DNA from: Reichenbachiella agarivorans | GTDB taxonomy: Bacteria > Bacteroidota > Bacteroidia > Cytophagales > Cyclobacteriaceae | Length of the DNA stretch: 64,000 nt | Direction: 5' to 3' | Assembly (NCBI RefSeq): GCF_025502585.1 | Contig: NZ_CP106679.1 | Coordinates: 62,001-126,000, forward strand | Shown: positions 31,975 through 57,981 of the stretch, in pieces | Layout of the letters: each line of letters opens with the position of its first letter | How positions within the stretch are numbered: the stretch's first letter is position 1 | Program-made: the position numbers and the translations under genes | The notes under the pieces: model-generated | The model's database searches: none | What the model was told of the DNA's origin: nothing | Seen by the model: only the letters and a program-made list of their open reading frames with translations

Positions 31975-32007
31975 TAAAAAAGGGGGAGCCTAAGCTCCCC
32001 CTTTTTT
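31975..32007. terminator. Bidirectional Rho-independent terminator
   Basis: A perfect 8-bp GC-rich stem, GGGGGAGC (31982-31989) with GCTCCCCC (31994-32001), loop CTAA, with an A tract before and a T tract after. It serves the beta-helix gene on the plus strand and the SDR gene on the minus strand; the T tract overlaps the SDR stop region. Confidence 0.93.
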
Positions 32008-32743
32008 ACATCTTTAGTTTCTTAAAAATCTGCTCTGGTATGCTACGAATGATCAACATGATCCATCTCCATACAAAACTCACGTAGATCGTATTCTTTT
32101 TCCTTAGCTGAGCTTTATAAATAACCTCGGCTACCTGCTCAGGCGATGAAGTCAATGCAGGAGGTAAATCCAAATGCCCAGTCATTTTAGTAGCTACAAA
32201 GCCCGGCTTCACTGTCATCACATGCAATCCTGAATGATACAGTCTATTGCGTAATCCATCCAAATAGACTGTAAAACCAGCCTTGGCACTGCCATAGAGA
32301 TAATTGCTAGATCTACCTCTATCTCCAGCCACCGAACTAATACCTATGATAGTGCCAGATCCTTGTATCAAGAATTTTTCAGCGATACGATTGAGGATAG
32401 AGACAGCTCCCGTGTAATTGCAGTGTATAATCCTCTCACACTCCTTCCAGTCTTGCTCTGCTATGGATTGATCTCCCAAATAACCAAACACGCAAACTGC
32501 CAGATCAAGTTTAGTCAAACATGCCTCTTGGACAAAGACCTCATGAGAAGATATATCCTCTGCATCAAACTCCATCAATTCAACCTCCACGGCACACTTC
32601 AATTTGATATCTTCCTGATATGGAAGCAATCTTTCAACTTTTCGTCCCGCCATTACCAAATCATGACCCTCCCGAGCATACACTTGGCCAATGGCCATTG
32701 CCATATCTGAGGTTCCTCCTAATATCAATATCTTTTTTTTCAT
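32006..32743 (-). CDS. SDR oxidoreductase resembling DprE2 (decaprenyl-phospho-2-keto-pentose reductase)
   Basis: A 245-residue short-chain dehydrogenase. The nucleotide-binding motif is GGTSDMAMAIG (from residue 9); the catalytic set is S136/S137 in ISSVAGDRGRSSN with Y150 and K154 in YGSAK. GGTS...SSVAG.R.R.SN..YG..KAG matches what I know of mycobacterial DprE2, which reduces the 2'-keto intermediate to polyprenyl-phospho-arabinofuranose. The DprE1-like gene lies 2 bp upstream, the same order as in mycobacteria. The C-terminus is hydrophobic and basic (WRWIMLIIRSIP), suggesting membrane contact. A generic SDR is the alternative, but the gene pairing makes the DprE2-like role likely. Confidence 0.85.
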   Translation of the reverse strand: MKKKILILGGTSDMAMAIGQVYAREGHDLVMAGRKVERLLPYQEDIKLKCAVEVELMEFDAEDISSHEVFVQEACLTKLDLAVCVFGYLGDQSIAEQDWKECERIIHCNYTGAVSILNRIAEKFLIQGSGTIIGISSVAGDRGRSSNYLYGSAKAGFTVYLDGLRNRLYHSGLHVMTVKPGFVATKMTGHLDLPPALTSSPEQVAEVIYKAQLRKKNTIYVSFVWRWIMLIIRSIPEQIFKKLKM

Positions 32744-32745
32744 CT

Positions 32746-34095
32746 CTATTCTGTTAACCCCAGTCTTTTACTCAACTGCGATTCAAATTTTCCTCCTAGG
32801 TTATACTTCTTCAATACTGATTTCACCTCTGGCAGCTGAGGGTAGGTAGTTTCAAAAGTAGATCGGGACATTCTCGCGTCCTTGGACAAATAAATTCTAC
32901 CTCCATATTTGATCACTTGCTCATCCATCAGATCCAAAAACTCAAAAAGCCCATCTTTGATAGGAAAATCCAAAGCCAGTGTATATCCTTCCATAGGAAA
33001 AGAAAACTCATTATCCTTAGCTCCAAACAACTTCAAAACAGCCAAAAAAGAACCATAACCACTCGTCCTAATCATGTCCAGCATCACTTTCAATCCTTCG
33101 ATACTACCTTCCAGAGGTAGTACAAACTGATATTGAATAAAGCCCCTTCTCCCATAGAGTTTATTCCATTCTAAAATCGAGTCTAATGGGTAGAAAAATC
33201 CCTCATAATGTACCAACTTCTTGGATTGCTTCTTCCATTGTTTATGATAGTACAAAAAATTGAATAACCGAATGGTAAAACCATTCAATGCCCAGTTGGG
33301 CAAATCCATCGGCATCTTCAATTTCGGCTTGGGTGAAGATGTATGTGCCTTGGGTGATTCTTTGCCATTTACCTGCTCCTTGCTAGCATGCTCTCCCAGC
33401 ATCAATACGCTGCGGCCTATAGACGACCCTTTTTGATAGCAGTCTATCCAGGCTACAGAGTATGTGTAGTCCTTGTGCTTTTGAAACAACTCGAAAACCT
33501 CCTCCAAATTGGACGCTTTGATGTTCAATGTATCTATGAGTGCATTATCTATTTTCTTGAGACGGATTTTGGCAGACAGTACCACACCAGTCAAACCCAT
33601 TCCTCCATGTGTCAAATCAAACAATTCAGGATTGTCTTGAGCACAGACCTCCACGATAGTATGATCTGCTTGCAACAACTCAAACGACTCTACAAAATTT
33701 GAAAATGACCCCTCCTTGTGGTGATTTTTGCCATGTACATTGGATGCAATCGCTCCTCCTACTGTGATAAATTTCGTCCCAGGTGTCACAGGTAGAAACC
33801 ATCCCTTTGGGACAATAAAGTCCAATATATCAGACAGTAAAATCCCACTCTGTACCTCGATGATCCCTGTCATAGGATCAAAAGCAAGAATCTTATTTAG
33901 TTTGAGTGTAGACAATACCTGCACGTTGAGAGAAGCATCACCATAGCATCGACCATTACCTCTAGCAATCACTCGCTCCTTCTTGTCAATTTCCTTTATG
34001 ACGTCATCACAAAAAGCAGGTTCTGTCAATTCGGCTTCAATCACAGGGAAGCGTGTCCAGTTGGATAGTTTTGTTCTTCTAATCTTTTTTGACAT
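32746..34095 (-). CDS. FAD-dependent oxidase resembling DprE1 (decaprenyl-phospho-ribose 2'-epimerase subunit)
   Basis: A 449-residue FAD-binding (PP-loop, PF01565-type) oxidoreductase. FAD-binding motif ARGNGRCYGDAS (residues 44-55), PGTKFITVGGAIASNVHGK (105-123), and a C-terminal block SFPMEGYTLALDFPIKDGL plus GGRIYLSKDAR (K405) that closely matches mycobacterial DprE1 as I remember it. DprE1 oxidises polyprenyl-phospho-ribofuranose at C2', and DprE2 then reduces it to the arabino form. At the position of mycobacterial Cys387, the benzothiazinone target, this protein has Ala374. It overlaps the upstream GT-C-like gene by 17 bp. Confidence 0.87.
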   Translation of the reverse strand: MSKKIRRTKLSNWTRFPVIEAELTEPAFCDDVIKEIDKKERVIARGNGRCYGDASLNVQVLSTLKLNKILAFDPMTGIIEVQSGILLSDILDFIVPKGWFLPVTPGTKFITVGGAIASNVHGKNHHKEGSFSNFVESFELLQADHTIVEVCAQDNPELFDLTHGGMGLTGVVLSAKIRLKKIDNALIDTLNIKASNLEEVFELFQKHKDYTYSVAWIDCYQKGSSIGRSVLMLGEHASKEQVNGKESPKAHTSSPKPKLKMPMDLPNWALNGFTIRLFNFLYYHKQWKKQSKKLVHYEGFFYPLDSILEWNKLYGRRGFIQYQFVLPLEGSIEGLKVMLDMIRTSGYGSFLAVLKLFGAKDNEFSFPMEGYTLALDFPIKDGLFEFLDLMDEQVIKYGGRIYLSKDARMSRSTFETTYPQLPEVKSVLKKYNLGGKFESQLSKRLGLTE

Positions 34096-35698
34096 AAACT
34101 TCTATAAACTCTGTTGTGTATTCACGAGGAGCCTGAAATGTAAATAATAACTGATACTCTTTCGAAAGTAATTCTCTTGTTGAAAATGGATAAAAATTAT
34201 TCAACTGTGGGATAAACTCGAAGATCACCATATCATAATAGTCATTGCTAATTCTACTCTCGATCTTCTTTAATTCTCTATCAAACATGGCAACATTGAG
34301 ATGATACCACAAAGGCATCCCCTTTTCCAGTTCAAAGCCCATAATATCTGCCAAAGGCGTCAACTCTGACATATTCAACACCTTGGGGTTCTCAATTCCA
34401 CTTGTGACCTTCCATTGTTTCAATCGCTCGATGGCGTCAATACATTCTGGCGGCAATTTGATTTTATCAAACGCCTTCTCAGGACTAATAGACCAATTAG
34501 ATTTATCCAATACTGTCGTATCTGCTACATTGGTATATGAGCTCATCGAAACCACATTCTTACTTGTCTCCTTTGGCGCGAGTAAGTTGGAAAAAATTCG
34601 ACCTGCGTATTTCCAATATACCCCAGACCACCATACGAATATCAATACGACCAAAGGTAAAAGAAACTTGACCTTACTAAAATTGACATCAACCTTGATA
34701 TTTGATAAAATGTAATAGAACATAAAACTATGAAAGTAGATGTTGCCATCTACTGGCACATAACTCGTCACTTGCAATACTGAAGCCTGTCCCAACACGC
34801 CTAATGTAAGCAACAAAAACAGCCCTTCATTTTTATTCTTAACCCAGCTCGTCCCTTGGCTAAACTTGAACATTACGATCAATACAATCAGCAAAAGGTA
34901 AAACTTAATAAAACTAGAATCTCCAAAAATCACACCGAGCAAATCCAGAACATTGACACGAGAATAATGAGGCTCCTGTCCATAGTTGAACCAATAACCA
35001 AATTCATGCGGCACCAAAGGCAAAATAAAGGCACATGCTATCGTAGCGAAAGACAATCCATAAACCACGATCGGTATCCATTGTCTTGATATTACAGTAT
35101 AATATAGTAGCAAAAGACCTGAAATCAGTACAGCAAAAGCACCGCCATCCTGTTTCGTGAAGAATGAAAGGAAAGCAAATAAAGCAGACAATACAATCAA
35201 AACGATACTCATCCAGCCTCGGCTATCATCTTGTTTTAACACCGATAACAATAAGGCAAAAGCTACAAACTCAAATACTATGACTGTATGATTGTACCAT
35301 GGCCAATAATTGAAGAATGAATATGAAACCACATACAAGAAAGTAGATGCAGCGATCAGTCCATAGTTCTTGGTAAAAGATCTCAGAATCGACATGAATG
35401 CTAGCCCAGATACGATGTTGATCACCACTTGAATCTTGATCAGTGAAAAGAAATATGGCCCAAACAGTTTGAATGAGAGTGCTGGCATCAGCCAAAAGGC
35501 ATACCCCATCGGTAAACCAAAATCCACAAAGGGCATTTGTCCTTGATACATCCTATAAGCTCCCTCCCATGTCAAATAAATATTATCTCTGAATGGAACA
35601 TTGACAAATAAAGGCACGCATGCAAAAACAGTTATTACTGCTAACTCAAGAACCATTAATTGTGTGGGACTTAATTCCCAATTAAAAAGACGTTTCAT
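34079..35698 (-). CDS. Polytopic membrane protein, GT-C-like glycosyltransferase
   Basis: A 539-residue protein with about ten membrane helices in the first 380 residues and a soluble C-terminal domain of roughly 150 residues. The first external loop has acidic residues (RDNIYLTWEGAYRMYQGQ from residue 37, and VDFG at 58), as in GT-C enzymes that take polyprenyl-phospho-sugars. It is coupled to the DprE1-like gene by a 17-bp overlap and begins right after the stop of the acyltransferase gene. From the context I infer it may transfer the pentofuranose made by the neighbouring enzymes; the protein was not recognised by close family. Confidence 0.65.
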   Translation of the reverse strand: MKRLFNWELSPTQLMVLELAVITVFACVPLFVNVPFRDNIYLTWEGAYRMYQGQMPFVDFGLPMGYAFWLMPALSFKLFGPYFFSLIKIQVVINIVSGLAFMSILRSFTKNYGLIAASTFLYVVSYSFFNYWPWYNHTVIVFEFVAFALLLSVLKQDDSRGWMSIVLIVLSALFAFLSFFTKQDGGAFAVLISGLLLLYYTVISRQWIPIVVYGLSFATIACAFILPLVPHEFGYWFNYGQEPHYSRVNVLDLLGVIFGDSSFIKFYLLLIVLIVMFKFSQGTSWVKNKNEGLFLLLTLGVLGQASVLQVTSYVPVDGNIYFHSFMFYYILSNIKVDVNFSKVKFLLPLVVLIFVWWSGVYWKYAGRIFSNLLAPKETSKNVVSMSSYTNVADTTVLDKSNWSISPEKAFDKIKLPPECIDAIERLKQWKVTSGIENPKVLNMSELTPLADIMGFELEKGMPLWYHLNVAMFDRELKKIESRISNDYYDMVIFEFIPQLNNFYPFSTRELLSKEYQLLFTFQAPREYTTEFIEVYVKKD

Positions 35699-36715
35699 TT
35701 AACTACCGATTAAGTATCTACTCTTATTTTTAAATATCATTTTTACTATCATCACGAATACATAAGAAATGATTACCACCACACCCCATTCGATCAACCA
35801 CTCATACCAAAACCTTGGGTACTCACTATGTAGAATTCTATTCATAATTACTCTCACACCCAAAATGACATAAAAATGGATGAAGTAAATGCCAAAACTT
35901 GTTTCAGCAAGCCGACTACACAAGTCTTTCCAAAAACTACCCTTGATCCTGTCCAAAAAATGCATCAAAACTGGTATAGCTACGACCTTCTGTACAAATA
36001 TGAACTGGTGTCTCCATGGGAATTCATACAGACAGAAAACAAAAAGGACAAGTAAACCCAAACTCACTACTACTATATACTTGGAGACCCATTGACGTAC
36101 CATTTCAAGATTGCGGCTATACCACATTCCTAGTACATATATCGACGCAAAGTGAACAAACATCCTTGGAATGTCATTCATGTTCTCCAAGTTGCGAGGG
36201 AACAACAAAGAAACAACCAAGAGCAGAGGCAGTAACCAATACATTCTTGGGCTGTCATCCCATAATTTAAAAATTGGTCCCAACACAAAAAAGATCGCTA
36301 TCATAGGCAAATACCAAAGCGGTAACAAATGCGACCCTGTAGCAAGATAAAAGGCCAGTTGACACCACGCATTAGACTCTCCTATATCAGGCCAACTTTG
36401 AAGAGCCAAATATGACGGTCCGCTATACCATCTAAGTGTCAAAGCTGGAATAGAGACTATCAAATAAGGCAACATTACGTTGAGCCATTTTCTTTTGAGA
36501 TATTTTTTATAATCAAATTTGTAAGCCAAATGCTGGAACAAATAGCCAGAAATGAACACATAAAATATGGTAGAGTTCAAGTAAACTGCACTTGTAAAAA
36601 AGTAAAAATTAGATTCCAAGTCAGCATACAGTAGATGACTTGATACTATCAGCAAAATCGCAATTCCTCTAAAATAATGTATGCCTCCTAAAAAGTCATT
36701 TTTTGTTTGATCCAT
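35699..36715 (-). CDS. Membrane acyltransferase, acyltransferase-3 (OafA-like) family
   Basis: A 338-residue protein with about ten membrane helices. The N-terminal HYFRGIAILLIVSSHLL has the conserved arginine (R16) and histidine (H27) of acyltransferase family 3, whose members O-acetylate or otherwise acylate surface glycans and lipids. No SGNH extension is fused. It overlaps the upstream HTTM gene by 28 bp and abuts the GT-C-like gene. A role in decorating the glycan of this locus is inferred. Confidence 0.88.
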   Translation of the reverse strand: MDQTKNDFLGGIHYFRGIAILLIVSSHLLYADLESNFYFFTSAVYLNSTIFYVFISGYLFQHLAYKFDYKKYLKRKWLNVMLPYLIVSIPALTLRWYSGPSYLALQSWPDIGESNAWCQLAFYLATGSHLLPLWYLPMIAIFFVLGPIFKLWDDSPRMYWLLPLLLVVSLLFPRNLENMNDIPRMFVHFASIYVLGMWYSRNLEMVRQWVSKYIVVVSLGLLVLFVFCLYEFPWRHQFIFVQKVVAIPVLMHFLDRIKGSFWKDLCSRLAETSFGIYFIHFYVILGVRVIMNRILHSEYPRFWYEWLIEWGVVVIISYVFVMIVKMIFKNKSRYLIGS

Positions 36716-37701
36716 TTAATCAGGTTGGTTAGATATGAATATAGATAGGGCCAATCTACGAGGCAAAGACATATCACTTGATAATCTAAGAATCCTAAGC
36801 CCATAAAAAGTCTAATTGAAAAATGAAAGCCTACGGCTGACAAAAGAAAAAACACTCTATACGGCTTCCAAAACAAAATACCCAGAGCTCCTAATTCAAA
36901 CAATATTGTCACAACACTAAGCAACGACATCAGCCAATCACTTTTGGATAATATTTTTGTCCATTCTATTAACTGAGGCTTTGATTGAAAGTTGCCATAG
37001 GTATACGCAACGATCCCATTCGTACCTTTCCAATCCACAGATTCAGAAACAGGAATAAATTTTTGAGCGACTGGGTTTAAGAATGAAGCTTGGCCAGATA
37101 AATAATAGGACAACGTTTCTCCGTCCATCCAATTGAATGTACCATATCTTATTTTGGATACTCCCGCCGTAAAATACCCTAATACAATTAACAGCATTAT
37201 CAGCTTAAGCCCCCAGTCATTGTACGACTCAATTTTCAACCAAGAATTAAACTGAAATCGATTTTTAATCAAGTTGTCTAAAGAGAAGTTTTTAATCCCA
37301 GGTGCCATCGATAGTACCAACAAGATTTGAACAGATAGTCCAGTTTCATGGTTGTAAATACCCGTGCTCGTATCAAAGTAAATGACCATCAGATATGTCA
37401 ACGCATATATAGAAAGAGTCCATCTAGTCATCAAACCCAATGCTGCAAAACAACCCACTATCACAAACAGATAAAAGAACTGGGTAGGATAGCTTGAAAA
37501 CAAAGCATACAAAGCATCTGTCAAAGCATCGGATCTATAAAACAATACAGGCTCGGAAAAATATGCTCTGAACTTATGACTAACAGTGATCAACTCCTTG
37601 AGGCTGATTAAAACCAGAAAAATTCGGAGTAAGGGAATATATGGCTTGTCTGTCCTTCTGAACAGTTGAAGATAAAGGCTATTGATCTTGCTCAAAATCA
37701 T
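36688..37701 (-). CDS. HTTM-like integral membrane protein
   Basis: A 337-residue polytopic protein (about seven to eight helices) resembling the HTTM / vitamin-K-dependent-carboxylase-like membrane family: YNHETGLSVQILLVLSMAPG near 113-132 carries the conserved His and the helix that follows, and GYFTAGVSKIRYGTFNW near 175-190 is typical. The biochemical role of bacterial HTTM proteins is mostly unknown. It shares an ATGA overlap with the small gene upstream and overlaps the acyltransferase downstream, so it belongs to the six-gene operon that ends with the DprE1/DprE2-like pair. Confidence 0.75.
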   Translation of the reverse strand: MILSKINSLYLQLFRRTDKPYIPLLRIFLVLISLKELITVSHKFRAYFSEPVLFYRSDALTDALYALFSSYPTQFFYLFVIVGCFAALGLMTRWTLSIYALTYLMVIYFDTSTGIYNHETGLSVQILLVLSMAPGIKNFSLDNLIKNRFQFNSWLKIESYNDWGLKLIMLLIVLGYFTAGVSKIRYGTFNWMDGETLSYYLSGQASFLNPVAQKFIPVSESVDWKGTNGIVAYTYGNFQSKPQLIEWTKILSKSDWLMSLLSVVTILFELGALGILFWKPYRVFFLLSAVGFHFSIRLFMGLGFLDYQVICLCLVDWPYLYSYLTNLIKWIKQKMTF

Positions 37702-38189
37702 AGAGAATTAAATGATCTAGATTCAACATCATAATAGCCCAATGTATCAATCTTAAATGCACGTTCTGATGGAGTCAACCAGTCCATCAAAAGATAAATA
37801 CCCTCTGTATCTGAATTCTTGGCAAGAATTAAATCACTCAATTTAAGAAAAAACGCCTCATTTCTTTGTTCGAAACCTTCTACCCCTCCTTCAAAATAAC
37901 CCTGTGGAGATCCTGGTTCTGATGAACCATACACGTTGCTAAAATAATATCGCTTTAACTTGACCTCCCATAAACCATATTTGGGATAGTCAATGGGCTT
38001 CATTTCATTGTTTGAACTAGCAATAACAAAATCAAAGGTCACCGTTGTATCCTGTGTAGTCACATAGTGACCAAACATCGGATTATTAGAAAATGGAAAG
38101 TGCTCTTGACCTACAGTTATTTCAATCAGATTTGGTATCAAAAAAGCACCAAAAACAATAAATACAATAAGTGGATAAAATTTAGGCAT
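37698..38189 (-). CDS. Small membrane-anchored protein of unknown function paired with HTTM gene
   Basis: Not recognised. It has 163 residues with one N-terminal membrane helix (about 4-24; FYPLIVFIVFGAFLIPNLI) and an external domain that starts with FPFSNNPMFGHYV, then mixed strands and helices. The 4-bp ATGA overlap with the HTTM gene suggests the two proteins act together. It is the first gene of the operon, and the only space upstream of it holds a terminator hairpin. Confidence 0.7.
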   Translation of the reverse strand: MPKFYPLIVFIVFGAFLIPNLIEITVGQEHFPFSNNPMFGHYVTTQDTTVTFDFVIASSNNEMKPIDYPKYGLWEVKLKRYYFSNVYGSSEPGSPQGYFEGGVEGFEQRNEAFFLKLSDLILAKNSDTEGIYLLMDWLTPSERAFKIDTLGYYDVESRSFNSL

Positions 38190-38230: not shown

Positions 38231-41200
38231 TTATTTTTTAACTAGTTTGATCGTTTCGATCTTGTCATCTTCATTTTGAATTTGTAGAAAATACATTCCA
38301 GATGTGAGTGAACTTGTATTGATGTTGAGTTCGTTAATACCCTCTAGCATGGCTTCACTTTTCGTATAGACAACCTGCCCCATTTGATTATAGATATTGA
38401 TGCGAGACATTTTATTTTCTGATACATTTACCTTGAGGTTGATTTCACTTTCAAAAGGATTAGGATACGCGACTATAGCTTCCTGATAGACTTCCAATTC
38501 TTCTTTCAACTCTACATCCTCTCGTTCTCTTGCTAGAGCTTCAACATTCCCCCCAAATGCATTTGAAACTTTCAAAACAATTGCATTGACATATGCCAGA
38601 TTTGTCCCTGTCATAGTTCTCATATCAATAGTCATATTACCTATTTCATCAGAAACCACATCCGAAATCATTGCCGTCTCAGTAGTATTAAATGAGGCAT
38701 TCAAAGAGACAGATTTTTCTCCTATTGTAAATTGTGTCCCTCTGTATGTAGCAGCACGACTAGCAAAGAAAATCACGTCATATTGCTGATTCAAAGCAAG
38801 ATTAGAGAATTTTACCGAAGCAACTTCTGCTTGCTCTATCCAATAATACGACTGAAGTACTACATCAGGATAAACTCCAGAATTATCACCAGTTACTGAT
38901 CCTTGGCTACCAGAAGTATTGAAGGTAGTAGAAAAAGAATTTGCAACTACTGTCATACTAATTCCTGTATTGTTACCAGAATCATTCTTCAAATCGCTCG
39001 TAACATTACCTACGAAGGGAACTTGGGCTGTATTGTTCCAGGGTGCAGGTGCTATAGAATTTTCATCACCGATGTTTAAGTAAACATAGTAGGAATAAGT
39101 ATACTCTTCTACTACATTGGAGTACAATGAAGGACTCACATCATTAAAAGCCCTTGCTTTATAAAAGTAACCAGTATTGGTGCTCAATCCCTGATCAATA
39201 TATTGATTCACTCCAGCAGGTAGTGTAGATATGAGTGTCCATGGACCAGAACTACTCGTAGACCTATATAGCTCAAATCCATCTTCATTGCTACTGTTGT
39301 CATTCCAATTCAATCTGATGGCTTGTTTTGATTCCGCTTGTGCAGTCAAATTAGAAGGTGCTTCTGGATAATCAGGCATTTCATAGAATCGAATCTCCAT
39401 GGCATTGATATACTTCCAAGGAGAACTAGCTGGTTTTTTCACCGTAAATACAATTTGTCCAGCCGCATCTGGTTTCAATCCTTTGATCTCTGCTACAGAG
39501 GTAGAATTGTTGGTAGCATTCAGATCAACAGTAGTGCTACCCACAGTATATTGGGTGATTCGGGTATCAGAAATATCTCCTCTACTACCAAAGAAAACCA
39601 AATCATATACTTTATCAACATCCAATCCGCTCAAAACAAAGTCCTTATTGTTGGTCGTATTATCGGCAAAATATGAAGCCATTGCTAAATCAGGATATAC
39701 CCCAGAGTTATTGCCTGTATTTATTCCACTATTATTACCTCCCGCCCAACTATTAGATAACCTCAATGCATATCCAGTATTGACTCCAGATGTAGTACTG
39801 ATATTGCTAATGCTGAGGTTGGCAGACGGTGTGCCAATCATATTGTTCCAAGGAGCGGGTACCGCATAACTTGAGTTAATACTAAAATTGATCAATGCTG
39901 TTTCATATACAAACTCCGTGACAGAAGCCACAAAAGTTACTGATGCCCTGTTATTGTTAATATCAATGGCTTCAATTTCAATAGTGTATGTACCCAAATC
40001 ATAAACTGTAGCATCAAAAACTATATTTCCATTGTTGGCATCAATCATTTCGAATGTAGCGAATGCAGGTAGATTAAGTACGTCAACACTCATATCATCG
40101 CCTTCTGGATCTGTCACAGAAAAGCTAATTGTTCTTGACAATCCTGCTTCTATGCTTATGTCATAATACCCTTGGATCAATGGTTCACGATTCGAGTATT
40201 CATAATGTACTGAACCACTGAAAGCAGAATTGCCAAAATCATTTACTGCGCGTACCTTATAGTATTGATCCTGCAAACTCAGGTTGGTATCAGTGTAAGT
40301 AGGGGTCGAGACGGTCGCGATTAATTCATAATTATCTTCATTACCGATAGATCTAAACACTTCAAATCCAGTCTCATTGTAGGCATGATCTGTCCAATCC
40401 AAAGTGACTCCTCCCTCCAGCGACAATTGTAGGTCTGATGGAGCAAATGGAACTATTCCTGAGAAACTCACTGCCTCAACGATCAGGGTGTTCAAATAGG
40501 CAATGCTAAATCCACCAGCATAGGTGATATTATTAACACTCACTCTTATTTCTCCATTAACATCAGGAGATATACCCTCCAACCGAGCTATCTGGTCTGT
40601 ATTATATGACGTCTGTACTTGAGAAGTCTCTGATCCAATTCCAAATACTGTCGTACGATCACCTCCTGAATTCCTACTTCCAAAAAAATCAAAATTATAT
40701 ACAGCATTGACGTCAAGCCCCGTAATTCTAAGGTATTCAGGACCACTATTACTCCAGAAATAAGACATTCTAGCTTCATCTTCATAGACTCCCGTAGGCA
40801 TACCTCCACTCACTCCTGAGCCATTCCAAGTGGTTTCTAGTATTACAGACATATTGCTCATCACAAACCCTTGATCATTTTTGATGTCGGTCAGTGTTAC
40901 TCCTGCGGTAGGAGTGGTTACCATTAGGTTGTTCCATGGCGATGGAGCTACAGATTGACTACCAAAATTAATGTACACCTTGTGGTTTGGGTCGAATGGA
41001 ACAACAGTCAATTCAATCACTTGCTCATCAAAACCTGTACGAACTGCATTGTCATCTTCTACACGGACATTGATAAAATAATGCCCACCATCAGTAGACA
41101 AACTAGGACTAAATACAATTGACATACCCAGTCCATCTTCGCTTGATTCGGTCGTAGCAAACTCAGGTAAGCCTGTCACAATCCAGCTCAAATTATCACC

Positions 41201-50345: not shown

Positions 50346-50465
50346 TTACAAATAATTAATCTTTAGCAAAAAAAACAAAGACAAAAGAGCACAAACGATC
50401 TTTAACCCAAAGATGATCAAGTTCAAAAACGGATCGCTACTCTCCTTCTCCTTATACCTACGCAT
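50346..50465 (-). CDS. Small membrane protein (39 residues) between co-polymerase and polymerase genes
   Basis: An ATG at 50465 begins inside the last codons of the Wzz-like gene, reads 39 codons and stops 7 bp before the polymerase start. The peptide has a charged N-terminus (MRRYKEKESSDPF) and one membrane helix (NLIIFGLKIVCALLSLFFLL), so a cytoplasmic N-terminus is expected. The overlap with the upstream stop and the short gap downstream are signs of a genuine coupled gene. Its role could be to join or regulate the polymerase complex. No known family was recognised. Confidence 0.65.
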   Translation of the reverse strand: MRRYKEKESSDPFLNLIIFGLKIVCALLSLFFLLKINYL

Positions 50466-52656
50466 CTTCTGGATCTACTTTGTTCAAAATGACAGGTCCT
50501 ACCTTACCTTCATGCTGTAAGATAAAATCAAGTGAAGTCTTATCTTTCTTGGTAAATTCATCATCTACACTGAAAATGGGTACCACCATATCTACATATC
50601 TTGTCAGTTCATGGGAATCAGAATATTGATTCAAAGCAGCCCCTTCAATAAAAATATAATCATATTCGGGACTCAACAAGTTGATCAGACGCTTAAAATC
50701 CAATTCTGCGAACACCTCTTCGGGTGACCTCTGCAAACTTTGGCTTTTCACAATGTAAACAAAGCCATTGGAGGTTCTCGACACTAGGCTAGAGTTGACC
50801 ATGCCCAACATCTCCGTATCACTCTTCTGCAGCCAACCGTGCTTATTCAACTCAATAACACCATCCAACTCTCCTTCCTGAATTTGACCATCTTTAGATA
50901 GCTGTGTAGAGAGAAAATTGTTTCTGAAATTGGTATCTATGATCAATACTCTTTTTCTTATCAAACTCATCGAATATGCCATAGCTGTAAGTAAAAATGA
51001 TTTTCCAGCACCTTGACGCAACGAAGTAAACATGATTACTTTGACTGGTTGTCCTAATATCTCATACCTCACTTTCCTGAGTGTGTGTGTCAGATTGGTG
51101 ATATATTCTTCCTTTTCTTTCTCAAACGCGCCAACCAACACATTAGACAGATTCATTTTTAACAACTTTAACCTAACGACAGTACCAGAAGGATCCAAAT
51201 TGGTCTGTCTTCTGAACTTAATTGGATTTTTGAATCTCATATCCAACAGCTCCAATGCCAACAACACAAACAGAGTCATGACAAAACCTACGATAAGTCC
51301 TAAGGCCGTGAAAATTACAGTTTTTCGTGATTGAGGATCCTCAGGCACATCTCCATAATAGGATATTTTCACTGAACTGGTACCTACCAATAACTCACTC
51401 CTGGCTTGATTGTACTTGTCTTGGGCTGCAATAAACTCATTTCTAGCTTGTACCACTTCTGTCTCCAAGTTTTCAAGACCTGATTTAGTAGAGGCCAAAC
51501 TCTGAACTGTTCCCTTTTCTACTTGGAATTGATCCTTCAACCTTTTCAAATCACCAAGTGCTATTTGATATTGGAGTTCAAGTTCATTCTCTTCAACAAA
51601 CAAATTGTCCAACTCTCGCTTTCCACCACTCGTCGATGTGTGCAGATACATCTCTGATTGTAATTCTCTACGCAACAACACAAGAGAATCCATCAATTGC
51701 TGATTATTAGGCTGCTGCATCAGTTTTGAGCTTAATCTGTCCAATTCAGATTTGAGTCCTACTATCTTTTTGTGATTCTCAAAATTACTTGTCTTATCCA
51801 TCTTGGCGATCTTCTCTCTCAAGTTCTCCAACCTGAAATTGATACTGCGGACGTTGCTCTCTTTCTCTCTAATGAGCTTTTCAAACTCAGCAATTGGGTC
51901 AGAGTCAGAATTTGAAGTGAGGAAGTTATACCTAGTTTTGTATCTGTTGAGCTTCTCTGTATTTTGGTTAAGCAACTGCTGTTTGTCTTTCAATATCTGA
52001 TCCAACACTGCCAAAGATTCATTTAGTCGGTTGGTCTTCTGATAATCATTGTACGCCACAAAATCTTCCGCCCAAAGATTTGCCACATAGGCAGATAGAT
52101 AGGGTACTTCTGAGGAAAAGCGAATGTTGATAAAATCTGTATTGCCAACCCTATGTATGTCTACATTCTGTAACATGTCCTTTTCCACATACTCATAGAT
52201 CTCAAGCAAGTCATAAATATATCTCCCTATATCGTCGGTTTTACTCACAAATGAGAAATCACCAATAGCCTTTCTCAATTCGGACATTACACTATCCAAC
52301 ATCTCTCCTTCTGGCTTCAATACCTCTTCCTTTTCAAAAGCAGGTCGTCTAAATGGTTTTTCGGAAGACAAATCATGAAGTAACAGCTTGTATGACAATC
52401 TGCTCACAACACGTTTTGATTTCATGTTTTCAATCAGATTGCTAAAACTCAACGACGTTTGAAAGGGATTGATTTTGCTCTGATCCCCCACATAATCGAT
52501 CGCAATGGTCAACCCAGTAGACAACTGAGATTCTGATATATAAATCCGATCCGTCATAAATCGCAATACAAAAGCAAGCATCGCCGACACCAAAGGGATC
52601 AGTACCAAGTAAAATTTCTTCCTAATGAGCAGTTTAATAAGTTCTTGAAACTCCAT
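50458..52656 (-). CDS. Wzz-type polysaccharide co-polymerase with cytoplasmic ATPase domain
   Basis: A 732-residue protein with the layout of Wzc-like co-polymerases: a Wzz N-terminal domain with a membrane helix at about 14-31, a long periplasmic coiled coil at about 205-435, a second helix at about 452-472, and a ParA/BY-kinase-like ATPase at about 535-732. The Walker A reads SLRQGAGKS (near 541-549), the Walker A' aspartate is in LIIDTN (near 571), and IFIEGAALNQ is the Walker B strand region. The C-terminus stops at NKVDPEDA with no tyrosine cluster, so autophosphorylation like that of Wzc is doubtful. It controls chain length and export. It is the first gene of a three-gene set with the small membrane protein and the polymerase. 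Confidence 0.88.
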   Translation of the reverse strand: MEFQELIKLLIRKKFYLVLIPLVSAMLAFVLRFMTDRIYISESQLSTGLTIAIDYVGDQSKINPFQTSLSFSNLIENMKSKRVVSRLSYKLLLHDLSSEKPFRRPAFEKEEVLKPEGEMLDSVMSELRKAIGDFSFVSKTDDIGRYIYDLLEIYEYVEKDMLQNVDIHRVGNTDFINIRFSSEVPYLSAYVANLWAEDFVAYNDYQKTNRLNESLAVLDQILKDKQQLLNQNTEKLNRYKTRYNFLTSNSDSDPIAEFEKLIREKESNVRSINFRLENLREKIAKMDKTSNFENHKKIVGLKSELDRLSSKLMQQPNNQQLMDSLVLLRRELQSEMYLHTSTSGGKRELDNLFVEENELELQYQIALGDLKRLKDQFQVEKGTVQSLASTKSGLENLETEVVQARNEFIAAQDKYNQARSELLVGTSSVKISYYGDVPEDPQSRKTVIFTALGLIVGFVMTLFVLLALELLDMRFKNPIKFRRQTNLDPSGTVVRLKLLKMNLSNVLVGAFEKEKEEYITNLTHTLRKVRYEILGQPVKVIMFTSLRQGAGKSFLLTAMAYSMSLIRKRVLIIDTNFRNNFLSTQLSKDGQIQEGELDGVIELNKHGWLQKSDTEMLGMVNSSLVSRTSNGFVYIVKSQSLQRSPEEVFAELDFKRLINLLSPEYDYIFIEGAALNQYSDSHELTRYVDMVVPIFSVDDEFTKKDKTSLDFILQHEGKVGPVILNKVDPEDA

Positions 52657-52707: not shown

Positions 52708-53682
52708 TCACTCATTCTGCTGCTCCGACTGGTGTCGACCTAGCATTTTTGAATTCAATTCCTTTTCGACAAACCTCAACCCCTGGTGGCTGAGATGACC
52801 ATGATCTATGTAATTTTCTACCTGATCTCTAAATGACAAATACCTGTCAGTATTAAAATCCAGGATCAACTCATCCTCAAAAAACAATGCCGAAACTCTG
52901 TTCTGATACTTTCGATGTTCTGATTCATTTGCCTGCCAAATTTGAGCAGGAATGGGATGAAAATATGCTGAAACAACGATTTCCTTTTGTCTCAATTCTT
53001 TCAACAAAACATCTAATTCTTCCAGCGCCATCTCATCTACCTCAATAGGCTCATCTTGATGTAGAATGGACTCCTCTTTAATTTTACCAGCCACATCTTT
53101 GACTCTGAATAGTGCATTGTAATCATTGGTACCATAGAACGTATATTGTTCTTTTGGGAACTTGTGAGGCATCAGGTCATACTCACGTATCACATAGAGT
53201 GCATATGTCTGGTACAAATTCAGTGATCCAAATGCCTCATAGTACAACGCCTGATCCAATTGTCCCCCTTTGCTCCCAGAGTCCTTGGTCAAATAGGGAT
53301 GCAAACATATGATTACCGATTGCACATCACCATACTTTATTACATTGTTCAATATCTGCTTGAGTTCAGAGATATTGGCACCCATGACACTGGCATTATA
53401 GTACTTCAGTTCACCAGACCACAGCTTGGTTACGTCAAGATTATCTGATAGTGAGGGGCCTATCAATACTCCCTTAAAACGACTTGGGATATAATTATAG
53501 GACATAATATATTTAGAAGTCTTCTCGTTGTGATAGATTTTCTTGTCCCCGTGCTGTCCATCTCCAAACAAACCAAAAATATCAATCCAAATATTGATTA
53601 GAGTAATGATTCCCAAAACAACTATACTACCAAGCAATGTCAGTACTAAAAACCTCCTTGTTTTATTTCGTTTGACGGTCAT
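52708..53682 (-). CDS. SGNH-like membrane-anchored partner of MBOAT
   Basis: A 324-residue protein from the ATG at 53682; a TTG frame to 53718 would overlap the MBOAT stop and add 12 residues. One membrane helix (about 10-30) precedes an external domain with a block-I-like VLIGPSLSDNLD near residue 74 (Ser in place of a GDS motif) and a terminal block DHGHLSHQG near 296, where Asp and His would complete an SGNH triad. Such proteins follow MBOAT genes in alginate and DltD-like systems and complete acyl transfer outside the membrane. It starts 5 bp after the MBOAT stop. The SGNH assignment rests on the two motifs and position. Confidence 0.72.
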   Translation of the reverse strand: MTVKRNKTRRFLVLTLLGSIVVLGIITLINIWIDIFGLFGDGQHGDKKIYHNEKTSKYIMSYNYIPSRFKGVLIGPSLSDNLDVTKLWSGELKYYNASVMGANISELKQILNNVIKYGDVQSVIICLHPYLTKDSGSKGGQLDQALYYEAFGSLNLYQTYALYVIREYDLMPHKFPKEQYTFYGTNDYNALFRVKDVAGKIKEESILHQDEPIEVDEMALEELDVLLKELRQKEIVVSAYFHPIPAQIWQANESEHRKYQNRVSALFFEDELILDFNTDRYLSFRDQVENYIDHGHLSHQGLRFVEKELNSKMLGRHQSEQQNE

Positions 53683-53686
53683 GTTT

Positions 53687-55081
53687 TTAAAAATCAAAAT
53701 ACAAGAATTCTTGATCAATAGAAGAGTTCAAAAACGTCACATTGAGTACCGTCAATACTACAATAACAACTGCATGCCGAGCATTGATCTGAAATCGCTC
53801 AGCAAACTCTTGGCTATTGGGAGCAAATAGTAAAACGACTCCTGCTACCCAAATAGGAAAATCATACAATTGTGAAATCAATTTAAATCCTTCTCCTGTA
53901 GTCTCTAAGTGTATCATGCTATTGAGTACATGCAAAGCATCACCCCATGATTCAGCTCTGAAAAACACCCACGCCATATTCACAAACAAAAAAGTAATCC
54001 CAAGTCCTACAACATAAGGGATTCTAATTTTCAACTTCTCAAAAAAACTATGAATCACCAGACCCAAACCATGCAAAAAACCCCAAAACAAGAAAGTCCA
54101 TCCTGCTCCATGCCAAATCCCACCTATCAGAAAAGTTGCCATCAAATTGAGTCTTGTTCTAAAAGCTCCTTTGCGATTGCCGCCTAGTGGTATATAGATA
54201 TAATCTCTCAAAAATCTACTCAAAGTCATATGCCATTTCCTCCAAAACTCTTTGATACTTGAGGATTTGTATGGAGACCAAAAATTGTTGGGAATGATGA
54301 TATTGAAAAACAAAGCAATCCCAATCGCCATATCTGTATATCCGCTAAAATCAAAATAAAGCTGAACTGTATAAGCCAAAGATGTCACCCAACTATCTAT
54401 AGTCCCCAAAATCGATGCATGACCATATCCTGCATTTGCAATCTTGCCAAAAGCATCTGCCACAATTACCTTTTTAGCCAAACCCATATTGAATACAAAC
54501 AATCCCTTGGATATATTCTCAGCATTTATTCTCTTCTTGGATTGATCAAAAAATTGGGGCATCATTTCGGCATGGTGTACAATGGGTCCTGCTATCAACT
54601 GAGGAAAGAAAGAAACAAACAGCGCATAATTGAGAAGCTCCATTTCCTCTACTACATCCTTGTACGTATCCACCAAAAATGCAATCTGCTGAAAAGTAAA
54701 GAAGCTAATACCCAGTGGTAATATGATATGCAAGAGGTTGTAATTGTCCCCTGTCAAAGCATTGAAGTTGGAAATAAAAAAATCAGCATACTTATAGTAT
54801 CCCAGTACCGAGACATTGAGCCCAATACCTATGACCAACAGCATTTTTTTCCTCCCTCCATTATGTTGGGCTTTGATAAGTTTATGAAAACCATAATTTA
54901 CCAAAATTGAACTTATAATCAGTGTGACGTACAGCGGATTCCACCATCCATAGAAAAACAAAGAAGCCAACAGTAACCAAACCTTAGACAATTCAAACTT
55001 GTCAAAATGATTGAGTATAAAATAAACTATGAACGTAACTGGAAGAAATAAGAATATGAATTCAAAAGAATTGAAAAGCAT
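53687..55081 (-). CDS. MBOAT-family O-acyltransferase (AlgI/DltB-like)
   Basis: A 464-residue polytopic membrane acyltransferase. IKEFWRKWHMTLSRFLRDYIY near 270-290 and WHGAGWTFLFWGFLHGLGL near 322-340, with the invariant histidine, are family hallmarks. MBOAT proteins of this branch carry acyl groups (usually acetyl) across the membrane to periplasmic glycans. The downstream SGNH-like protein is the expected partner. A TAnnTTTG-type element lies about 65 bp upstream of the ATG. Confidence 0.94.
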   Translation of the reverse strand: MLFNSFEFIFLFLPVTFIVYFILNHFDKFELSKVWLLLASLFFYGWWNPLYVTLIISSILVNYGFHKLIKAQHNGGRKKMLLVIGIGLNVSVLGYYKYADFFISNFNALTGDNYNLLHIILPLGISFFTFQQIAFLVDTYKDVVEEMELLNYALFVSFFPQLIAGPIVHHAEMMPQFFDQSKKRINAENISKGLFVFNMGLAKKVIVADAFGKIANAGYGHASILGTIDSWVTSLAYTVQLYFDFSGYTDMAIGIALFFNIIIPNNFWSPYKSSSIKEFWRKWHMTLSRFLRDYIYIPLGGNRKGAFRTRLNLMATFLIGGIWHGAGWTFLFWGFLHGLGLVIHSFFEKLKIRIPYVVGLGITFLFVNMAWVFFRAESWGDALHVLNSMIHLETTGEGFKLISQLYDFPIWVAGVVLLFAPNSQEFAERFQINARHAVVIVVLTVLNVTFLNSSIDQEFLYFDF

Positions 55082-55339: not shown

Positions 55340-56215
55340 ATGAAAACCCTTTCTTTGCTCAACAGTGTATTTAGAATCAAACACTGGGTCAAAAACACTT
55401 TCATTTTTATTCCTAGTTTCTTTGCTGGTCATTTTTTGCTAGGCGATGAACTGGTTGATCTTATCCAAGCCTTTTTCTCGGTATGTCTGGTAGCCAGTTC
55501 GATCTACATCATCAATGACATCCGAGACGTTGAGATGGACAGACTGCATCCAGAAAAAATGCACCGCCCCTTTGCTGCTAGGCTGATCTCGCCGATACAA
55601 GGTTATCTATTGATGATAGTGATCTTAGGTATTGGTTTGACCTCTGCCTATCATCTATCTACTCAATTTTTCGGACTGTGTCTGCTATACCTAGCTATCA
55701 ACATTGCCTACTCCCTAGGGTTAAAATCTATCGCTATTGTTGATTTGCTACTCGTATCTTCTGGTTTTTTGATCAGAGTGTATATGGGTGGTGTCATTTC
55801 TGGTGTGGCAGTATCTCATTGGTTATCCATTATGATTTTTCTTCTCTCTCTTTTCATCGTTCTTGCCAAGAGGAGTGATGACATCAGAATTTTTGAAGAA
55901 GACGGTACGGTCGTGCGCAAAACCAGTTCAAAATACAATCGCGTGTTCATCAACTCCTGCATCACGATGGTCAGTGGTATTATCATTGTGTGCTATATAC
56001 TCTACTGTGTTTCGCCAGAGATCACACAACAATGGCAATCGGACTATATTTTCGTCACGACCATCTTCGTCATCGCAGGTATCATGAGATACCTACAGCT
56101 CACCATGGTAGAAAACAAAACTGGCTCACCAGTTCAAATCCTGTACAAGGATAAATTCATCATTCTCACACTCATTGGCTGGCTATTAGCATTCGGTTTC
56201 ATCATCTACATCTGA
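55340..56215 (+). CDS. UbiA-family phosphoribosyltransferase, decaprenyl-phosphate phosphoribosyltransferase-like
   Basis: A 291-residue polytopic prenyltransferase. The Mg-diphosphate site IINDIRDVEMDRLHPEKMHRP (N59, D60, D63, D67, R68; HRP at 75-77) resembles that of mycobacterial Rv3806c rather than heme or quinone enzymes. The second cytosolic loop has LAKRSDDIRIF. This branch joins phosphoribose from PRPP to polyprenyl phosphate, the first committed step to polyprenyl-phospho-arabinofuranose. It is followed by a HAD phosphatase gene that can supply the next step; DprE1- and DprE2-like genes lie in another operon of this locus. Another polyprenyl transfer is possible but less likely. Confidence 0.85.
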   Translation: MKTLSLLNSVFRIKHWVKNTFIFIPSFFAGHFLLGDELVDLIQAFFSVCLVASSIYIINDIRDVEMDRLHPEKMHRPFAARLISPIQGYLLMIVILGIGLTSAYHLSTQFFGLCLLYLAINIAYSLGLKSIAIVDLLLVSSGFLIRVYMGGVISGVAVSHWLSIMIFLLSLFIVLAKRSDDIRIFEEDGTVVRKTSSKYNRVFINSCITMVSGIIIVCYILYCVSPEITQQWQSDYIFVTTIFVIAGIMRYLQLTMVENKTGSPVQILYKDKFIILTLIGWLLAFGFIIYI

Positions 56216-56230
56216 TTCTGGTTATCATTT

Positions 56231-56821
56231 ATGAAAACACTCGCTCTGTTTGATTTTGACGGCACCCTCACCCAAAAAGACAGTTTGTTTGAAATGGCGA
56301 AGCATGTTTCGTCTCCAGCGATATACTATCTCAAAATCAGCGTATTGATTCCTGTTTTTACTTTGATGAAAACATCCCTTCTATCCAAACAAAGGGGGAA
56401 GGAAATCTTCATGCAATTATTCTTTGGCGGGATGAAAATCGAGGATTTCAATCAACAGTGCTATAAATTTTGCAACCAAAGGCTGCCTGAGATCATCAGA
56501 CCCAAAGCACTCATAGCACTGCAACAGTACCAAGAAAATAATACCGATACATACATCGTGTCTGCCTCTCCTGAAAATTGGATCAAACCATGGGCTGAAA
56601 AACTTGGAATCAAAGTCCTAAGTACTCAACTAGAAGTACAAAACCTCAGAATCACAGGACGCATACTTGGCAACAACTGCAACCATGAAGAGAAAGTGAA
56701 TCGAATCAAAAACCATATCAACCTGACCGAATACAACCATATTGTTGCATATGGAGACACAAAGGGTGACTTCCCTATGCTCAATCTAGCTAATACCAAA
56801 CACTACAAACCTTTTCAATAA
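56231..56821 (+). CDS. HAD-IB-type phosphatase
   Basis: A 196-residue haloacid-dehalogenase-fold hydrolase. Motif I is ALFDFDGTLTQKDSL with nucleophile D8 and acid D10, motif II is TYIVSASPENW, motif III is a lysine in the middle region, and motif IV is YGDTKGDFPML. The HAD-IB helical cap contains KQRGKEIFMQLFFGG. Its place between a phosphoribosyltransferase and a glycosyltransferase suggests it dephosphorylates polyprenyl-phospho-5-phosphoribose, a reaction assigned to a different phosphatase type in mycobacteria. The stop overlaps the next ATG by one base. Confidence 0.86.
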   Translation: MKTLALFDFDGTLTQKDSLFEMAKHVSSPAIYYLKISVLIPVFTLMKTSLLSKQRGKEIFMQLFFGGMKIEDFNQQCYKFCNQRLPEIIRPKALIALQQYQENNTDTYIVSASPENWIKPWAEKLGIKVLSTQLEVQNLRITGRILGNNCNHEEKVNRIKNHINLTEYNHIVAYGDTKGDFPMLNLANTKHYKPFQ

Positions 56822-57981
56822 TGGAAATTGCTTTCTGGCTACTCATTACCCTCGTTTTCTATACCTATGTTGGTTATGGAATCGTCCTTTTCATCCTGGT
56901 CAAAATCAGGGGATCCAAAGTCTCTCCTAAAATTTATGATTCGGTCAATGAAGTGGCAATCACTCACATCGTAGCTGCTTTCAACGAGGAGGCATATATT
57001 GAAGAAAAAATCCAAAACTCACTGGCTCTCAACTATCCACAATCCAAAAACATCTTGTGGATCGTAACCGATGGCAGTACAGATAGCACACCCGAACTGG
57101 TTCAGAAATACGAAAACGTCAGACTCTTCCATAGTCCAGAACGCAAGGGAAAAATCCATGCGGTCAACAGAGTCATGCCACTGGTAGAAACGCCCATCGT
57201 CGTGTATTCTGACGCCAACACCATTCTCAATCAAGAGTCTCTCCACAACATCACCAGACACTATATCGATCCCAAGGTAGGCTGCGTATCAGGTGAAAAA
57301 CGAATCCGTCAGGATGACAAAGACGAAGCATCCAGTGCGGGTGAAGGCATGTACTGGAAATATGAGTCCTTCCTCAAAAAATATGACTACCACCTACACT
57401 CAGTGGTAGGTGCAGCAGGAGAGTTGTTCTCTATCCGAACTGACCTCTATGAACATATCAATCCTGACACGTTGATTGAGGATTTTTACCTGTCTCTAAG
57501 AATCGCTCAAAAGGGATACAAAATAGCCTACGAGCCAGAAGCCTATGCACTAGAAAACTCTTCTGAATCCATCAAAGAAGAATCCAAACGAAAAATCAGA
57601 ATAGCCGCAGGTGGTCATCAGGCAATCTGGAGATTAAGATCACTCCTCAACTTCTTCCAATACGGCTGGTTGAGTTTTCAATTCATCTCGCACAGGGTAC
57701 TGAGGTGGACCTTGACTCCTCTAGCGTTGAGTTTACTTTTGGTTCTCAATGCTTTCTTGGCTGTCAACAACATTCTCTATCAACTGATATTGGTAGCACA
57801 ATTGGGCTTTTATGGCCTGGCTTTTTTGGGTCACTTTTTCCAAAAGCGAAAAATCAAAGTCAAAGCTCTATTTGTACCCTTTTACTTTACCTTCATGAAT
57901 ATATCTGTCTATCAGGGTTTTTTCAGATACATCAAAGGAAGTCAATCTGTACTGTGGGAACGAGCATCACGAAAAGTGTAA
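56821..57981 (+). CDS. Membrane glycosyltransferase, family 2
   Basis: A 386-residue GT2 enzyme: an N-terminal membrane helix (about 3-25), catalytic domain with ITHIVAAFNEEAYIEEKIQN, VTDGSTDSTPEL, metal site YSDANT, LIEDFYLSLRIAQKGYKIAY, and KRKIRIAAGGHQA at the position where others have QxxRW, then two or three C-terminal helices. It is transcribed with the phosphoribosyltransferase and phosphatase genes and overlaps the latter by one base. It may build a sugar onto the lipid intermediate. The donor is unknown. Confidence 0.88.
   Translation: MEIAFWLLITLVFYTYVGYGIVLFILVKIRGSKVSPKIYDSVNEVAITHIVAAFNEEAYIEEKIQNSLALNYPQSKNILWIVTDGSTDSTPELVQKYENVRLFHSPERKGKIHAVNRVMPLVETPIVVYSDANTILNQESLHNITRHYIDPKVGCVSGEKRIRQDDKDEASSAGEGMYWKYESFLKKYDYHLHSVVGAAGELFSIRTDLYEHINPDTLIEDFYLSLRIAQKGYKIAYEPEAYALENSSESIKEESKRKIRIAAGGHQAIWRLRSLLNFFQYGWLSFQFISHRVLRWTLTPLALSLLLVLNAFLAVNNILYQLILVAQLGFYGLAFLGHFFQKRKIKVKALFVPFYFTFMNISVYQGFFRYIKGSQSVLWERASRKV

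Follow-up and report, generated by a model that had tools for sequence, protein, structure and literature searches.

The closest described relatives of the gene set considered here, which lies in a 64,000-nucleotide stretch of the genome of Reichenbachiella agarivorans (Bacteroidota; contig NZ_CP106679.1, positions 62001 to 126000 of a 4.47 Mb genome held in a single contig; the whole stretch is referred to below as the window), are systems in which a pentofuranose is carried on a polyprenyl phosphate. One is the mycobacterial and corynebacterial decaprenyl-phosphoryl-arabinose pathway (Rv3806c, Rv3807c, DprE1 and DprE2, with Emb/Aft), whose DprE1 is known above all as a target of tuberculosis drugs. 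The window encodes homologues of Rv3806c (a UbiA protein), DprE1 and DprE2 that are similar over nearly their full lengths, and a GT-C fold transferase is likewise encoded with this cassette, AftA, EmbC and AftB being among its weaker structural matches. The window differs in that the GT-C is without a sequence match to the solved Emb/Aft chains at E 1 or better, that the genes are part of a Wzx/Wzy-type glycan locus, and that the phosphatase is of the HAD type, to which Rv3807c is unrelated according to the available portion of PMC11127046; at the phosphatase step, therefore, the window follows the design found in Citrobacter.

Indeed, the pathway is known outside mycobacteria. The same available portion of PMC11127046 places DprE1 and DprE2 homologues in candidate systems of arabinofuranose-containing glycans, and gives biochemical precedent for the making of polyprenyl-phospho-ribofuranose by UbiA and HAD activities, a HAD-UbiA protein producing farnesyl-phospho-ribofuranose, with the ribose-5-phosphate and ribose adducts at m/z 513 and 435. 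It also describes the three-component pentofuranose systems of Citrobacter youngae O1 and O2, with which the window shares, in predicted function, a UbiA phosphoribosyltransferase and HAD phosphatase, a periplasmic GT-C and a polyprenyl-phosphate donor; unlike there, HAD and UbiA are separate genes (they are fused in some other Bacteroidota), no MATE flippase is tied to the cassette, and the genes are split over two operons. A further Gram-negative case is the D-arabinofuranosylation of pilin in Pseudomonas aeruginosa PA7/Pa5196 (TfpW; available parts of PMC11127046 and PMC11841053), for which a lipid-linked D-arabinofuranose donor is proposed and the acceptor enzyme is a GT-C; the acceptor is pilin in that case, whereas here it would probably be a Wzy-type glycan or a surface protein of the type IX secretion system (T9SS). 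No decaprenyl-phosphate phosphoribosyltransferase group is reported for the Flavobacteria examined in the available part of PMC9235831, and no title on DprE1 or arabinofuranose donor genes in Bacteroidota was found in the open literature, among the matches listed and with few subscription papers covered. What is new here is a split, HAD-type version of the pathway in Bacteroidota with a dedicated, unnamed GT-C family.

The proposed donor pathway and its genes

We put at about 0.82 the probability that the Wzx/Wzy-type glycan locus at ~26 to 58 kb of the window makes and uses polyprenyl-phosphate D-arabinofuranose. The genes on which this reading turns are the following.

32006..32743, - strand: DprE2-like SDR reductase, with YGSAK (YxxxK)
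32746..34095, - strand: DprE1-like FAD oxidase
34079..35698, - strand: unnamed GT-C fold membrane glycosyltransferase, candidate arabinofuranosyltransferase
55340..56215, + strand: UbiA-superfamily polyprenyl-phosphate phosphoribosyltransferase (PPPRS; Rv3806c-like), motif NDIRDVEMDRLHPEKMHRP
56231..56821, + strand: HAD-IB phosphatase, candidate 5'-phosphoribose phosphatase (PRP-like)

The four donor-pathway open reading frames, which the original prediction had placed at these coordinates and strands, are all present and encode 291 (UbiA), 196 (HAD), 449 (DprE1) and 245 (DprE2) residues. Their division into two operons, also claimed there, is supported by the tight spacing and overlaps: in one operon UbiA and HAD are separated by 15 bp and HAD overlaps a family 2 glycosyltransferase gene by 1 bp, and in the other the GT-C gene overlaps DprE1 by 17 bp and DprE1 lies 2 bp from DprE2. 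That account of the donor genes stands, therefore, as far as it went; it left unnamed the GT-C at 34079-35698, the candidate user of the donor.

In the proposed scheme, the UbiA would act as an Rv3806c-like polyprenyl-phosphate phosphoribosyltransferase and the HAD protein would strip the 5'-phosphate from its product, after which DprE1 would oxidise the lipid-linked ribofuranose at C2 and DprE2 would reduce the ketone with inversion to give lipid-linked D-arabinofuranose. This donor would then be flipped across the membrane, for which the MOP/MATE-type protein at 45687..47027 is one candidate, such that the GT-C could move arabinofuranose onto the glycan in the periplasm. In other words, arabinofuranose would form part of the surface glycan. 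We infer the reactions, the lipid, the acceptor and the flippase from gene identities found by homology, from co-occurrence and co-localisation, from the grouping of the UbiA and from the GT-C fold.

Identity of the predicted donor enzymes

In a PDB search the top match of the UbiA is the solved decaprenyl-phosphate phosphoribosyltransferase (DPPRS) 8j8j (E 1.9e-38, residues 10-287 of 291), with the quinone-type UbiA 4-hydroxybenzoate octaprenyltransferase (4od4) at E 0.0096; similarly, NCBIfam NF008977 scores 213.4 bits against 26.1 for the top quinone model, TIGR01474. In the alignment with the solved enzyme, the motif NDIRDVEMDRLHPEKMHRP falls opposite NDVRDVEADREHPTKRFRP, and the NDxxDxxxD pattern, named as the loop II motif in the available text of PMC11127046, is present as NDIRDVEMD at residues 59-67, its N, D, D and D being invariant across four DprE1-linked relatives. 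In a tree built from 60 rows of NF008977-type UbiAs, leaving out the quinone and heme enzymes, the window protein falls in a 24-row clade (100/99) in which every UbiA has a link to DprE1 or the GT-C cassette, its nearest rows being those of the sister genomes G049 and G186 (100/92) and then G146 (99/92). The clustering with heme or quinone enzymes that the original prediction had set as a test of itself is not seen, given the top PDB match, the low scores of the heme and quinone NCBIfam models and the placement in the cassette clade, and a quinone, heme or aromatic UbiA is rejected on the same three grounds. Two separate observations concern other UbiA genes. A phage-labelled record from human faeces (MT837543.1, 6.6 kb) encodes a UbiA 42% identical to that of the window, and in a Cesiribacter genome (G252; L197 and L198, on one contig) the UbiA adjoining DprE1 is read in two frames, such that it may be broken or reflect a sequencing error.

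The oxidase and the reductase are each closest to their mycobacterial counterparts among solved structures. DprE1 scores 411.5 bits with NCBIfam NF053785 over residues 2-449 of 449, the next family reaching 48.1 bits, and in the PDB search it matches solved mycobacterial DprE1 at E 1.8e-82, the next oxidase following at 5.1e-09; a grouping with unrelated FAD oxidases, the other outcome on which the original prediction had staked itself, is thus not observed, and an unrelated FAD oxidase is rejected. By a hand count on the alignment, the residue aligned to Lys418 of solved DprE1, which we take to be catalytic, is a lysine, and that aligned to Cys387, presumably the inhibitor-binding residue, is an alanine. 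The reductase matches solved DprE2 (21gq chain C) at E 2.6e-40, with the next SDR at 4.2e-16, scores 227.9 bits with NF053786 and contains the SDR motif YxxxK as YGSAK. DprE1 homologues were also seen on 64 plasmids, 34 of them from Rhizobium, and in two of the 20 listed among them a GtrA gene, of the flippase type that the R. agarivorans genome is without, lies under the DprE1 match; the E. coli genomes gave no DprE1 match at the DNA level.

The HAD protein scores 128.2 bits with TIGR01490 (NCBIfam cut-off 98.3) and contains the HAD-IB nucleophile motif DxDGT as DFDGT, which is not specific to PRP. Its gene is contiguous with UbiA, DprE1 and DprE2 in relatives, and HAD-UbiA fusions occur in other Bacteroidota families: of six regions fetched five were scanned, and all five long UbiA frames have an N-terminal HAD domain over the Pfam cut-off, although in one of the five no individual stretch gets below E 0.001. 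On this evidence the HAD protein is a candidate phosphoribose phosphatase.

Co-occurrence and gene order

Across a phylum sample of 247 Bacteroidota genomes, DprE1 is found in 52 and an NF008977-type UbiA in 89. The two coincide to a marked degree, with a UbiA hit in 51 of the 52 DprE1 genomes and in 38 of the 195 others (Fisher 3e-27); in the lone DprE1 genome without a UbiA hit, G157, DprE1 lies near a contig end. Within the 52 DprE1 genomes the two genes are at most 2 kb apart in 40, between 2 and 30 kb apart in four (the window, G049, G186 and G131), more than 30 kb apart in three and on different contigs in four. In G146, G099 and G210 the order UbiA-DprE1-DprE2-HAD is contiguous on one strand. 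These contiguous operons, the co-occurrence and the HAD-UbiA fusions together support the claim of the original prediction that the four genes serve one joint pathway.

In the window, as in G049 and G186, the genes for Wzc, MATE, Wzy and TolC are flanked by UbiA-HAD on one side and by DprE1-DprE2-GT-C on the other. A single ancestral operon would accordingly have been split, with its two parts left at opposite ends of the export genes, and the three genomes, taken with the branching order of the tree, fit one rearrangement before these genera diverged.

The GT-C transferase

The GT-C has no Pfam or NCBIfam family match, its top sub-threshold Pfam match being at E 0.039, and its sequence profile gives no relevant match in the PDB, with no solved Emb or Aft chain at E 1 or better. 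The closest homologue fetched by name, from Fulvivirga lutimaris, is 53% identical. Relatives were collected by scanning genome contigs with a four-row alignment, the best 80 of 203 being kept with flanks of up to 10 kb; these 80 loci are mostly from Chitinophagaceae and are not independent of each other. Fetched by GT-C alone, they contain UbiA in 74 cases, DprE2 in 71, HAD in 67, DprE1 in 56 and MATE in 10. A census of gene families in the same loci, made without chosen queries, gives much the same picture (GT-C 80, UbiA 73, DprE2 69, HAD 65, DprE1 55), the next commonest family dropping to 38. An EamA-like gene (named by eye) adjoins the GT-C in 29 of the 80 and was seen as Chitinophaga synteny.

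Where a donor gene is missing from the locus it is found elsewhere in the genome. All 24 genomes with a DprE1-less GT-C locus have DprE1 at another place, as do two controls, every one of the 26 scoring at least 422 bits in a search with an E limit of 1e-20, whose model also matches in Bacillus subtilis and Methanosarcina acetivorans. A DprE1-less cassette with a lone SDR epimerase, as suggested by loci that hold UbiA, DprE2 and HAD only, is rejected on this result. All six genomes with a UbiA-less GT-C locus likewise have a UbiA hit elsewhere; two of these hits pass the cut-off, and one is read in two frames.

The sharpest association comes from one family (f5; 147 genomes sampled), in which the GT-C is found in 35 genomes and DprE1 in 37: all 35 GT-C carriers have DprE1, against 2 of the 112 non-carriers. 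This sample overlaps the 80 loci, five DprE1 places sharing coordinates (for example in G381 and G264). Three of its genera hold both a genome with the two genes and a genome with neither (g13, G382 and G033; g125, G381 and G286; g143, G398 and G305). In the phylum sample the GT-C occurs in five genomes, all of them DprE1-positive.

A confident AlphaFold2 model of the protein (pLDDT 88.2, pTM 0.90) has moderate TM-scores with its Foldseek matches (at most 0.55 in the rows shown), such that it is a GT-C by fold and not close kin of any solved enzyme. Residues E45 and D59 are invariant in 46 aligned sequences, and either may be the acidic catalytic residue looked for in the first extracytoplasmic loop of such transferases. 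Judged against Pfam, NCBIfam and the PDB, the family is unnamed. From the gene associations and the modelled fold, the GT-C is probably the user of the donor, putting arabinose onto a surface glycan.

The surrounding glycan locus and a related plasmid

The remaining genes of the region are those expected to initiate, extend, modify and export a glycan, together with genes for two T9SS-sorted surface proteins.

26071..27195, + strand: initiating sugar-phosphate transferase (Bac_transf)
27201..28370, + strand: family 2 glycosyltransferase (GT2)
28374..29270, + strand: family 2 glycosyltransferase
29254..29901, + strand: hexapeptide-repeat transferase
29971..31950, + strand: right-handed beta-helix protein, T9SS-sorted, adjoining DprE2
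35699..36715, - strand: acyltransferase 3 family membrane protein, in the DprE1/GT-C operon
36688..37701, - strand: HTTM-domain membrane protein, in the DprE1/GT-C operon
37698..38189, - strand: 163-residue protein without a Pfam or NCBIfam match, in the DprE1/GT-C operon
38231..45097, - strand: 2288-residue T9SS-sorted surface protein
45687..47027, + strand: MOP/MATE-type flippase (Wzx-like), candidate for the repeat unit or the lipid-linked pentose
47038..48228, + strand: group 1 (GT4-type) glycosyltransferase
48225..48911, + strand: short TolC-like outer-membrane protein
48923..50338, - strand: Wzy/O-antigen-ligase-like protein
50458..52656, - strand: Wzc-like chain-length/ATPase protein, its Wzz and AAA_31 matches below the Pfam cut-offs
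52708..53718, - strand: 336-residue protein adjoining MBOAT
53687..55081, - strand: MBOAT O-acyltransferase
56821..57981, + strand: family 2 glycosyltransferase, 52% identical to its plasmid-locus homologue

Of the 22 genes between 26071 and 57981 of the window, 17 have homologues on a 53.6 kb plasmid of a Flammeovirgaceae bacterium (CP139022.1). On the side of sugar assembly and export these are the initiating transferase, the three GT2s, the GT4, MATE, MBOAT with its partner, Wzy, Wzc and TolC; the rest are GT-C, UbiA, DprE1, DprE2, the beta-helix protein and the giant surface protein. This overlap suggests that the region from ~26 to 58 kb is one functional unit. In the plasmid record the UbiA is named decaprenyl-phosphate phosphoribosyltransferase and the GT-C a hypothetical protein. 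The plasmid (L200, L201 and L209) is typed non-mobilizable.

As for the surface proteins, the 2288-residue product, encoded upstream of the GT-C operon, has four Fn3 domains, PA14, laminin G and a Por_Secre_tail, and its N-terminus is alpha/beta-hydrolase-like by weak Pfam and NCBIfam matches. Homologues of this N-terminal domain are encoded in 23 of the 80 GT-C loci; a single-sequence search of 20 genomes gives 0-5 matches per genome, a background that is a lower bound since the copy in the L121 genome was missed. With loci that are not independent and a background given only as a minimum, a link between the esterase-like domain, T9SS and the cassette is kept only as speculation. Giant alpha/beta-hydrolase-like surface proteins also stand beside the cassette in L089, L094, L119, L131, L153 and L160, T9SS tails having been checked in the window, L067 (just below the cut-off) and L089 only. 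Relatives of the beta-helix protein at 29971-31950 occur in several GT-C loci (L087, L089 and L092) and on the plasmid. On this gene content the glycan may be connected with T9SS cargo, and the arabinosylated glycan could be bound by, trimmed by or attached to the giant T9SS proteins that adjoin the cassette. Taken to its full extent, the proposal would make the GT-C the first member of a new D-arabinofuranosyltransferase family that comes and goes together with the donor genes in Cytophagales and Chitinophagales, moves in a plasmid-borne glycan module and decorates a T9SS-tied surface glycan; in this extended form we regard it as tentative and, on balance, unlikely.

Alternative readings and points against

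The observations gathered in this section that concern equivalog cut-offs, mutase-linked UbiAs, missing partners, the lack of a dedicated flippase, the scarcity of this GT-C among DprE1 genomes and its few strong fold matches weigh against an arabinofuranose donor-and-transfer pathway.

The alternative that survives best, rather improbable as it is, holds that the GT-C transfers some other lipid-linked sugar, of the aminoarabinose or mannose type for example, and that its link to dprE arises only through variable glycan loci. Its best Foldseek match is ArnT (E 7.3e-05, probability 1.00, TM-score 0.47-0.55), which we take to be a 4-amino-4-deoxy-L-arabinose transferase. Four PDB matches reach E 0.001 or better (ArnT twice, a C-mannosyltransferase and an oligosaccharyltransferase), with no arabinofuranosyltransferase among them; protein O-mannosyltransferases, AftA (2.7e-03), EmbC (2.1e-02) and AftB (3.8e-02) follow as weaker matches, also at probability 1.00, and GT-C folds are in any case common to many donors. 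Two further points count against the main reading: 47 of the 52 DprE1 genomes in the phylum sample are without this GT-C, such that those genomes, if they too use the donor, would need other acceptor enzymes, and no flippase is dedicated to the cassette, MATE homologues occurring in just 10 of the 80 loci and GtrA being absent from the host genome. Against the transfer of another sugar by the GT-C stands the near-exclusive co-occurrence of GT-C and DprE1 in f5, including the contrasts within single genera. In addition, Chitinophaga loci contain the cassette without a MATE homologue, and a shared Wzx/Wzy locus is therefore no ready explanation of the linkage.

A second alternative, which we consider distinctly unlikely, is that a lipid-linked pentofuranose is made of which the final sugar is not D-arabinofuranose but ribofuranose or another epimer, the oxidase or the reductase acting on another position or substrate. 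In this regard, DprE1 (411.5 bits) and DprE2 (227.9 bits) lie below their equivalog cut-offs of 500 and 250 bits, and the generic SDR model NF005489 (326.4 bits, cut-off 267) outscores the DprE2 model on the reductase. The choice of epimerase does set the sugar in the systems described in the available portion of PMC11127046, where xylofuranose is made with an SDR epimerase and the GT-C of the Citrobacter-type system is promiscuous. Set against these points, the window encodes the two halves of the C2 epimerase pair side by side, each resembling its counterpart, DprE1 or DprE2, over nearly its full length, the lysine aligned to Lys418 is kept, and DprE1 and DprE2 homologues belong to the candidate arabinofuranose systems noted at the outset. 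As to the cut-offs themselves, that of NF053785 is passed in none of the 247 Bacteroidota genomes and by the control Corynebacterium glutamicum, and for NF008977, of which the cut-off of 234 bits lies above the score of the window UbiA, the sister G146 (246.0 bits) and L090 (241.1 bits) pass, 42 of the 247 genomes pass, and the C. glutamicum control falls below. On these outcomes, NCBIfam cut-offs are poor judges of the pathway in both directions.

A further point against the D-arabinofuranose pathway is that NF008977 alone is unspecific and also covers a second subfamily of Bacteroidota UbiAs. A mutase-type gene is present in 24 of the 30 best-scoring Bacteroidota NF008977 UbiA loci (L032-L061), the only scanned member of that gene family being a methylmalonyl-CoA mutase, and the mutase-linked UbiA of L032 matches solved DPPRS at E 3.6e-36, nearly as well as the window UbiA, so that similarity to DPPRS is on its own no proof of the pathway. 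The DPPRS annotation may indeed be wrong for this subfamily, the loci of which often contain a CNNM/CorC transporter or DUF362 gene. Ribofuranose makers among Bacteroidota with UbiA only are unsupported, since the mutase-type gene in those 24 of 30 loci marks another UbiA subfamily. In the tree, the DprE1-linked UbiAs fail to form a single clade (8 changes), that of G184 groups with the mutase-linked subfamily, and L050 (G128) and L041 (G164) fall outside the cassette clade; in G208, which is outside the tree, UbiA and DprE1 are 971 kb apart. Some of the 51 joint genomes may therefore pair DprE1 with an unrelated UbiA. For the window itself, an aromatic or lipid prenyltransferase that lies near dprE by chance is a highly improbable reading of the UbiA, for while the Bacteroidota UbiA-like protein Ubi-297 farnesylates quinolines in vitro (available part of PMC9235831) and many Bacteroidota UbiAs above the NF008977 cut-off adjoin a mutase gene, the window protein sits in the DprE1/GT-C-linked clade apart from the mutase-linked proteins, its NCBIfam matches, as listed, do not include EboC (the Ubi-297 type), and a UbiA homologue accompanies the GT-C in 74 of 80 loci.

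Lastly, the cassette is not everywhere complete. The Thermoflavifilum loci gave no HAD, and the HAD, acyltransferase 3, HTTM, 163-residue and hexapeptide proteins of the window have no homologue anywhere on plasmid CP139022.1 (best E 0.36), on which acyltransferases of different sequence are annotated.

Implications

A DprE1 homologue is encoded in about a fifth of the sampled Bacteroidota genomes (52 of 247), mostly beside a UbiA of the phosphoribosyltransferase type. The GT-C is directly testable as the user of the donor. Its presence or absence predicts that of DprE1 almost perfectly in the f5 family and would provide a genomic marker for D-arabinofuranose in surface glycans. Such glycans could also serve in nature as substrates of D-arabinan-degrading enzymes, for instance those described from Dysgonomonas gadei in the available part of PMC10115798.

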